Shown: positions 32,797 to 34,289 of the stretch, piece after piece
Numbering within the stretch: position 1 is the first letter of the stretch
How the letters are laid out: every line of letters begins with the position of its first letter
Assembly: GCA_937900945.1 (NCBI GenBank)
Contig: CALCGG010000191.1
Span: forward strand, 1 to 34,289
Length of the DNA: 34,289 nucleotides
Reading direction: 5' to 3'
From: an uncultured Sulfurimonas sp.
GTDB lineage: Bacteria; Campylobacterota; Campylobacteria; Campylobacterales; Sulfurimonadaceae
Position numbers and translations under genes: made by a program
The notes under the pieces: generated by a model
What the model was told of the DNA's origin: nothing
The model's database searches: none
What the model saw: only the letters and a program-made list of their open reading frames with translations

Positions 32797-33828
32797 ATGA
32801 ACATTTACCATAAAACTATTTTACTATTTCTTTTTACAGCGTGCGGTGCTGTTGCCGAGACAAATGATGCGAGTATTCAGGAAGATACTTATATAGACAA
32901 GGTGCATAGCGCTATCTCGGATAAAGTCGTTGATTATTCTAATCGCATAGATATATGGCTTAATGACATGATTACCAGCTCCGATAAGAACGATATAGTT
33001 CAAGAAAACTCCGCAGATACTTTCTTTCGCAGTGATAAGTTTTATGAAGAAACAGATGAGACATTTGTATCTGTAAATCTCAATTCAAACTTTATTTCTG
33101 ATGGAACCAATAAGTTTAATGGATCCGTAAACGCACGCTTACCGCTAAGCCGCAGTACAAAAGAATTCAACCTGTTTATCAATGATCTTAATCAAGATAA
33201 TTTTAATGATATTGTAAAGAATAATTCTATAGACGAAAAATCCGGGACACAGATAGGAGTAAACTATTTTGCTCCCGTTTTTTATGAAATTAAACAAAAA
33301 TATTCCGTCGGTACAAATGGTATCAATCCTTTTGCGATTGCAAGATATACCATAAGCAAAGATTTTTACACTTGGAAGATAGAGCCGGCACAAATTTTCA
33401 AATATTCACTTAAAGATTATTTTGAGGAACAAACAAAGATATACTTTGATAAGCAGTTAAGCGAATCCAGGCTCTTCAGGATCAATCTTTACCGTGGCAG
33501 CCAAGTCGACAGTTCCGGGATGGATTATGGTCTTGCGTTACAACACTATTGGCTTCTTAAAGACAATGCGGGATTAAGTTTGTCTCAATCATTTTCAGGT
33601 AATACGGAATATGAATACAGTACAAATAACCCGCTTCTTCCAGAGGAAACAAAAAAAGACGGAGGAATTACCAACTACACAACATCAGTCAGCTATCGCA
33701 GAAGTGTGTGGCGTAAATGGTTTTTTTATGGAGTCACACCTAATGTAAACTTCAAAAAGCAAAACAACTATGAACCGGCTTATGGACTTAACTTTTTCCT
33801 TGATCTCTATTTTGGTAACATAAAATAG
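32797..33828 (+). CDS. Predicted outer-membrane beta-barrel protein of unknown function
   Basis: 343 residues. The N-terminal signal peptide (about 1-21) has a likely signal-peptidase cut after AVA. A helical acidic segment (about 25-75) follows, then alternating beta-strands (FVSVNLNSNFISDGTNKFNGSVNARL, AIARYTISKDFYTWKIEPAQIFKYS, FYGVTPNVNF) rich in Tyr, Phe and Trp to the C-terminus. It ends GLNFFLDLYFGNIK, a terminal aromatic strand of the outer-membrane kind, though the last residue is Lys and not Phe. I do not recognise the family. It follows recO by 54 bases and is convergent with a Wzz-type gene, which may hint at an envelope role. Confidence 0.6.
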   Translation: MNIYHKTILLFLFTACGAVAETNDASIQEDTYIDKVHSAISDKVVDYSNRIDIWLNDMITSSDKNDIVQENSADTFFRSDKFYEETDETFVSVNLNSNFISDGTNKFNGSVNARLPLSRSTKEFNLFINDLNQDNFNDIVKNNSIDEKSGTQIGVNYFAPVFYEIKQKYSVGTNGINPFAIARYTISKDFYTWKIEPAQIFKYSLKDYFEEQTKIYFDKQLSESRLFRINLYRGSQVDSSGMDYGLALQHYWLLKDNAGLSLSQSFSGNTEYEYSTNNPLLPEETKKDGGITNYTTSVSYRRSVWRKWFFYGVTPNVNFKKQNNYEPAYGLNFFLDLYFGNIK

Positions 33829-33890: not shown

Positions 33891-34289
33891 TTACGCATCC
33901 TCTTTATTTTTGGAAATGAATTCCATAAAGAAAACTAAAAATATAGAAAGAATTAAACCGGTGATAAATGCTACAACTACGATGAGTTTCTTTTTTGGTT
34001 TTATTGGATAATTCGAAATTGATATCTTACCGATAACTTTGGCATTATCTATATTGTTTTTAGTTTGATTATATATTAACGTTGCGATTTGATCTTTTAG
34101 ATTTGGGATATCAATAAATGTAATGTTTTCTTTTTGTTGTTCTAAATTTTTTATAGATACTTGGTTTATCTTTTCCTTATTTCGTTCCAAGTTAGGTATG
34201 TCTTCACTTAGTATCTTTTCCTTATTTCGTTCCAAGTTAGGTATGTCTTCATTTAGTATCTTATCTTTTTGCAGGTTTAAGTCAGTGAT
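33891..34289 (-). CDS. Wzz/Etk-type polysaccharide chain-length determinant, C-terminal fragment
   Basis: The window holds the last 132 residues; the N-terminus and first membrane helix lie beyond 34289. The visible part is a periplasmic repeat region (residues 1-70 of the fragment), then a short linker, SNYPIKPKKK, and one membrane helix of about 24 residues (LIVVVAFITGLILSIFLVFFMEF) with a basic or acidic tail. The proline-rich P.KPKKKL run before the final helix is the classic Wzz/polysaccharide co-polymerase signature. Such proteins set O-antigen or capsule chain length. No tyrosine kinase domain follows, so it is of the Wzz rather than Wzc type on the C-terminal side. The 15-residue repeats are described separately. 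Reading the frame upstream of an in-frame TTG at 34235 shows no stop, so the start is outside. Confidence 0.82.
   Translation of the reverse strand: MTDLNLQKDKILNEDIPNLERNKEKILSEDIPNLERNKEKINQVSIKNLEQQKENITFIDIPNLKDQIATLIYNQTKNNIDNAKVIGKISISNYPIKPKKKLIVVVAFITGLILSIFLVFFMEFISKNKEDA
34167..34262 (-). repeat. 45-bp tandem repeat in the Wzz-type gene
   Basis: Bases 34167-34217 match 34212-34262 at all but one of 51 positions, a 45-bp period. In protein terms it encodes 15-residue units of the form DIPNLERNKEKI plus three variable residues. More diverged units flank them on both sides (SIKNLEQQKENI and DIPNLKDQI downstream, xITDLNLQKDKI upstream), giving about four and a half units in view. The near-identity of two copies suggests recent duplication by slippage. 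Confidence 0.85.

Follow-up and report, generated by a model that had tools for sequence, protein, structure and literature searches.

Paired 15-residue units in the arms of predicted polysaccharide co-polymerases related to a Sulfurimonas gene fragment

The polysaccharide co-polymerase (PCP) subfamily represented by a truncated gene of an uncultured Sulfurimonas sp. has a periplasmic domain with four parts: base, ascending arm, conserved tip and descending arm. Both arms are built of 15-residue units with a preferred proline position and, across relatives, lengthen together, almost always by an equal number of units. We regard this arm anatomy with its paired steps, which is read from sequence, as very probable, and the finding exceeds a single repeat array, namely, two arrays are changing in step. 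The reading that we favor as a whole, with a probability of about 0.55, is that of a helical-hairpin PCP whose height is stepped by paired duplications and in turn limits the glycan. The DNA of the longer members shows 45- or 90-bp tandem arrays, in many of them separately in each arm; the oligomeric periplasmic barrel is predicted to rise by about 22 Å per paired step; and barrel height, hence inner volume, would limit the length of the glycan that is made or held before release.

A co-polymerase gene cut by the contig end

The window, that is, the whole stretch of 34,289 nucleotides analyzed here, is the entire contig C191, one of the 244 contigs of its genome. Its last 399 bases (33891-34289, minus strand) hold the 3' part of a PCP gene, 132 codons and a stop codon, whose 5' end is lost at the contig end, where the listed open reading frame of 132 amino acids remains open. 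The encoded protein matches the GNVR domain (PF13807) with an E-value of 2.2e-8, above the Pfam cut-off, in agreement with the Wzz-type protein proposed in an earlier note on this DNA, and it stops just past the second transmembrane segment (TM2), leaving it without a kinase domain. To judge by these features, the window encodes the C-terminal portion of a PCP that lacks a kinase. TM2 falls in a predicted helix, residues 101-131 (33897-33989, minus strand), placed by structure prediction and the GNVR match and preceded by a proline-rich NYPIKPKKK motif.

The in-frame units of this protein, NLQKDKILNEDIPNL / ERNKEKILSEDIPNL / ERNKEKINQVSIKNL / EQQKENITFIDIPNL / KDQIATLIYNQTKN, amount to four 15-residue units and 14 further residues, which bears out the previous count of at least four units in the periplasmic segment. 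Together, these 74 residues (34056-34277, minus strand) make up the putative descending arm, corresponding to 75 residues on the ladder of arm lengths described below. The arm was delimited, on one side, by the match of a C-end profile hidden Markov model, which begins at residue 79; and, on the other, by aligning ITDL (residues 1-4) by eye with the INDL that closes the tip motif in the relative L011, since the profile of the tip gave no significant match on the window fragment.

At the DNA level, Tandem Repeats Finder detected a 45-bp tandem repeat at 34167-34262 (minus strand), with 2.1 copies, 98% matches and a score of 185 at period 45, whereas no repeat scored above 64 when the window was shuffled 100 times with its dinucleotides preserved. 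When shifted by 45 bases, 50 of 51 positions are identical, precisely the single difference in 51 that had been reported between two DNA copies, and successive units share 38, 30, 25 and 22 of 45 bases. The earlier reading of an array is right in that the repeats are real, but the window array represents the descending arm alone, and the ascending arm of relatives has a second one. Since the contig end cuts the gene, the window cannot yield its unit count.

Arm lengths of the relatives form a ladder

Matches to the window fragment were found in 90 of 199 genomes, its own included. With a family profile at an E-value of 1e-10, matches were obtained in 60 of the 135 genomes from the genus and in 163 of the 398 from the order; at 1e-20, 63 of the 397 genomes of a phylum sample matched, with all of the matches listed there belonging to the same order. 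The relatives considered hereafter are 98 distinct full-length proteins of 192 to 529 residues, under a length limit of 640. For contrast, the open frames of 25 weakly matching Wzz-like genes of the genus span 302 to 339 residues, a count made by hand that leaves out kinases of 765-821 residues and two fragments (177 and 191 residues). Assignment of the family to the PCPs is firm, with PF02706 and PF13807 both present in 22 of 22 aligned members, and with profile matches in the PDB to Wzc (7e-25), WzzB (6rbg; 8e-6), WzzE (8e-4) and, at 0.027 only, FepE.

Arm lengths were measured between three anchors, namely, small profiles built from 22 members: one for a motif that precedes the ascending arm, one for the tip (48 positions) and one for a motif before TM2. 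At thresholds of 10, 15 and 10 bits, 64 of the 98 proteins passed, including 21 of the 22 used to build the profiles, and 34 did not. The ascending and descending arms of these 64 strict members, given in residues, follow a ladder of (70,15), (85,30), (100,45), (115,60), (130,75), (145,90), (160,105) and (175,120), within a total range from (62,8) to (190,120). Thus, the variable unit number that had been suspected is strong in both hairpin arms of the relatives, rather than copy number being fixed among them. The ascending arm exceeds the descending arm by exactly 55 residues in 53 of 64 members, and lies within 2 residues of this value in 60, against a mean of 13.6 and a maximum of 26 in 10,000 permutations; the remaining, off-ladder differences are 52, 51, 48 and 70, and L011 (190,120) is the sole strict member that is a whole unit off balance. 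Both lengths are correlated with a Pearson r of 0.998, and 15 is the strongest period in both arms when periods from 5 to 23 are scanned (resultants of 0.88 and 0.92). The N-terminal length of the same proteins is not stepped, with a resultant of 0.105 at 15.

The anchors were also applied, unchanged, to a second set of 20 members, drawn in part from a genus already sampled in the first. Nine members passed, seven with a difference of exactly 55 and two at (93,45), whose ascending arm is half a step short. The 11 members below threshold consist of four armless proteins, two without a sensible tip and five weakly placed ones, with readings of (111,60), (130,71), (125,75), (130,75) and (134,68). 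Loosening the anchors in the first set brings in 13 more members: (63,8) accounts for four of them, (70,15), (100,45) and (115,60) for one apiece, and six are poorer fits at (70,8), (73,15), (108,60), (109,79), (111,60) and (113,60); even then, 21 of the 98 are unmeasurable. As the (63,8) class lies half a step under (70,15), the smallest arm step may be of about seven residues.

To what extent the two arms change together can be followed on a tree of the 64 strict members, constructed from the base and TM2 regions with the arms left out. This tree calls for a minimum of 19 changes in joint class (19 for the ascending and 18 for the descending arm), related sequences being non-independent and one of the 19 changes possibly arising from rounding in the (62,8) member. 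Among nine sister pairs, chosen by eye and not all independent, seven show equal differences in the two arms, to within one residue. The two others are L072/L075, with 23 versus 30 residues, and L011/L012, with 75 versus 60. The latter are sisters on the tree, with N-terminal blocks 92% identical in protein and 84% in DNA, and are five units apart in the ascending arm and four in the descending arm; both arms have therefore been altered since their split.

The ladder also bears on the missing part of the window gene. A search of the source genome with the family model, at an E-value of 1e-10 or lower, gave two matches alone, one in the window (model positions 259-377) and one at the end of contig C201 (model positions 4-185). 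The latter contig carries, in this order, a gene that we take to be nspC-like, a methyltransferase gene and, broken off where the contig stops, the first 172 residues of a Wzz protein. The only match to PF02706 over the cut-off in this genome is on C201 as well (57.3 bits), two further places falling under the cut-off. We found no exact overlap of 15 or more bases shared between the ends of C201 and C191, and the five flanking proteins had no counterpart among open frames of at least 120 residues in the loci of relatives, whose flanks are short. It is nonetheless likely that both fragments are complementary halves of one gene. From its anchor at residue 95 the C201 fragment extends over 78 residues, and, should the ladder hold, a descending arm of 75 predicts an ascending arm of 130 and, as a prediction only, a gap of about 95 residues between C201 and C191.

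Units, DNA arrays and predicted structure

The two arms differ in the consensus of their units, which in L011 is KKIDDQINLLKTQDI for the ascending and QRQKEKILKETIPNL for the descending arm. The hydrophobic period is close to 15/4, or 3.75 (3.73 in 30 arms and 3.76 in 15 arms). Prolines have a preferred place, namely, position 13 of 15 for 99 of the 119 prolines of descending arms, and one single position for 39 of the 43 prolines of ascending arms. Tandem arrays with periods of 45, 90 or 135 bp are present in an arm of 10 of the 11 strict members with ascending arms of at least 145 residues, and in both arms of 7 of these 11; for instance, L021 and L017 have 90-bp arrays in both. Strict members with ascending arms of 100-144 residues have an array in 1 of 20 only, which suggests that most shorter members are older or eroded.

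Structures were predicted with AlphaFold2 from single sequences. For the window fragment alone, helices were obtained at residues 2-55, 64-87 and 101-131, with a mean pLDDT of 81.6 (by blocks of ten residues, 86-96 in the first five and 70 in the sixth). The first of them (34125-34286, minus strand) is predicted to run continuously across two Ile-Pro sites, with a break at residues 56-63 only, and so the previous suggestion that proline kinks or caps a helix at each unit does not agree with the model. For the short relative L120, of class (63,8), a turn at residues 186-190 was predicted between two helices, 132-185 and 191-221, with high local but low overall confidence (pLDDT 61.8, pTM 0.38). 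A fold search with this model gave nothing at an E-value of 0.001 or lower, with Wzc at 0.40 and the KpsE complex at 0.88. The predicted arrangement of the arms, based on these single-chain models of a short member and of the window fragment, is an antiparallel helical hairpin. A helix rises by 1.5 Å per residue, hence the height of the step given above for each paired 15-residue addition. On this scale, the additional height relative to class (70,15) would be about 160 Å for class (175,120) and about 90 Å for the class of the window protein, with its descending arm of 75.

Possible function and alternative explanations

How co-polymerases control the length of sugar chains is disputed, with ruler, timer and volume models presented in the accessible parts of two accounts (PMC7809406, PMC12004945). 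A paper of 2026, as far as its available text goes, proposes from FepE versus WzzB that inner (cavity) volume sets the length (PMC13161533). Following this volume model, glycan length would rise with unit number. Yet FepE and WzzB have, according to the same portion of text, unlike product lengths at a similar outer height, so that height would not be the sole route to volume (PMC13161533). A natural height series in equal steps, with eight rungs and with base and tip kept, would allow a dose-response test of the volume idea; and the subfamily offers a clean case of a gene whose two repeat arrays evolve jointly, presumably under the need for their products to pair.

We put a function in glycan length, inferred as it is, slightly below even odds. 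It is more tentative still that the paired units are a genetic dial, set during evolution by paired duplications, by which glycan length would be adjusted in steps, with graded natural rulers across the order and sometimes several per cell. The genes nearest to the fragments, both in the window and on C201, are non-glycan. A scan of the flanks of relatives (98 proteins scanned) gave 13 Polysacc_synt_2 and 10 Bac_transf proteins; glycan genes adjoin only some relatives, and the neighborhood is mixed as evidence for a pathway. In the source genome, which is 99.95% complete, no match to Wzy_C (PF04932) was found, while the control for this search matched in 9 of 14 genomes. A detectable polymerase partner is therefore missing, which, Wzy proteins being very diverse, is weak but real counter-evidence.

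The arms could instead serve reach, not volume, a proposal that we find unlikely. Here, the tip would touch an exporter in the outer membrane, of the Wza or KpsD type, and the arms would be matched in length to the distance of this partner, as in PCP-2a and PCP-3 proteins. Such a role would fit a recognizable tip motif kept between arms of widely unlike length, and the absence of a Wzy_C match leaves room for an ABC-transporter route. Moreover, KpsE, which belongs to class 3 of the PCPs, has a crown formed by a helical hairpin, and contact with KpsD is most probably made by an additional, predicted hairpin, according to the available part of a study of this protein (PMC11041684). However, unlike arm classes share one genome, hence one periplasm width, in G145, with (160,105) and (100,45), in G401, with (145,90) and (85,30), and in G419, with (160,105) and (85,30); G320 of the first set and G508 of the second likewise hold paralogues of unlike class. 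Reach could be rescued only if each paralogue had its own partner of different height, whereas, if barrel height limits the glycan, these paralogues would fit different products in one cell.

It is also improbable, in our estimate, that array length has no function, that is, that 45-bp repeats grow and shrink by replication slippage, with selection removing mismatched arms and total length being neutral. Very recent identical copies do occur, as in the 45-bp array of the descending arm of L011, with 6.5 copies at 100%; the 45-bp array of its ascending arm has 6.0 copies at 79%. An intermediate would be expected to show the imbalance of one unit that this same member has. Closely related species differ in length, and neutrality is compatible with the long-armed clades, where the DNA arrays sit. 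Against this, 22 members from three families are exactly (85,30), which is hardly expected of a freely slipping array.

Lastly, an artefact, in which repeat collapse produces wrong copy numbers and the ladder stems from anchor placement, is very improbable: although the window gene breaks at a contig end near its array, 7 of 12 partial family matches open at a locus end, and the anchor profiles come from members nearly all counted within the 64, long members are found in assemblies of one or two contigs (G136, G055, G145, G396), which makes an assembly effect unlikely, the anchors lie outside the arms, unit boundaries drawn by eye agree in 15 members, N-terminal lengths are unstepped, and the unchanged profiles put seven of nine new members on the ladder.

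Comparison with known systems and further observations

What this subfamily would add to known PCPs, on the basis of its sequences, is arms of paired, stepped 15-residue units. First, it shares with PCP-1 proteins (WzzB, FepE, WzzE) PF02706 at the base, a periplasmic helical part, a proline-rich segment before TM2, PF13807 and the absence of a kinase, but differs in arm units that vary over the eight rungs; the periplasmic domain of E. coli WzzB is about 100 Å high, according to the accessible text (PMC7809406). Second, the PCP-2a tyrosine autokinase Wzc is the best profile match in the PDB, as noted above, yet the window protein ends just after TM2. Third, the PCP-3 protein KpsE similarly has a hairpin crown above its base, its cage reaching about 80 Å into the periplasm, or about 120 Å with the modeled part, whereas a stepped series is not described for it in the portion of that report available (PMC11041684).

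Outside the PCPs, the 15-residue repeat and the hydrophobic period near 3.75 of the arms are those of 15/4 (pentadecad) coiled coils. The stalks of YadA are coiled coils of this kind, parallel and trimeric, in contrast to the antiparallel hairpin, with two unlike consensuses, that is predicted for the arms. The literature searched, which lacks coverage of most subscription journals, yielded no account of arms that vary in steps.

Several further observations were made along with this analysis. Adjoining the gene fragment in the window, at 32797-33828 (plus strand), is a protein of 343 residues whose start resembles a signal peptide by eye, with no Pfam match at E-values up to 1 and no NCBIfam match up to 0.01. 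Family genes may be close neighbors, as in L177:1684-6936 (genome G506), with two close genes of class (145,90), and in L124:1477-3527 (G508), where a (93,45) gene is immediately followed by an (85,30) gene. Armless relatives (L050-L055 and L138-L141), of about 190-206 residues, consist of base and TM2 without a measurable tip, and in some cases share their genome with an armed member (e.g. G032 and G080). L095 is a family copy split by a stop into frames of 232 and 121 residues. A search of a viral collection gave one match, the short member L120, which directly precedes a gene resembling, by eye, a sugar transferase (L120:4962-6556); its record may be a bacterial or provirus-flank contig. 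The off-ladder member L086:2458-3687 has a 66-bp (22-residue) tandem repeat of 2.2 copies (98%) at codons 286-335. Finally, a loop of the base domain, at about codons 58-98, contains 3- or 6-bp microsatellites in L032, L028, L042, L044, L105, L107 and others, encoding either Asn tracts or tracts in which Asn alternates with Ala, Ser or Thr (about 30 Asn in L032). They are present in 19 of the 98 members, namely, in 11 of the 33 strict members with ascending arms of up to 85 residues, in none of the 31 with 100 or more, and in 8 that were not strictly measured.
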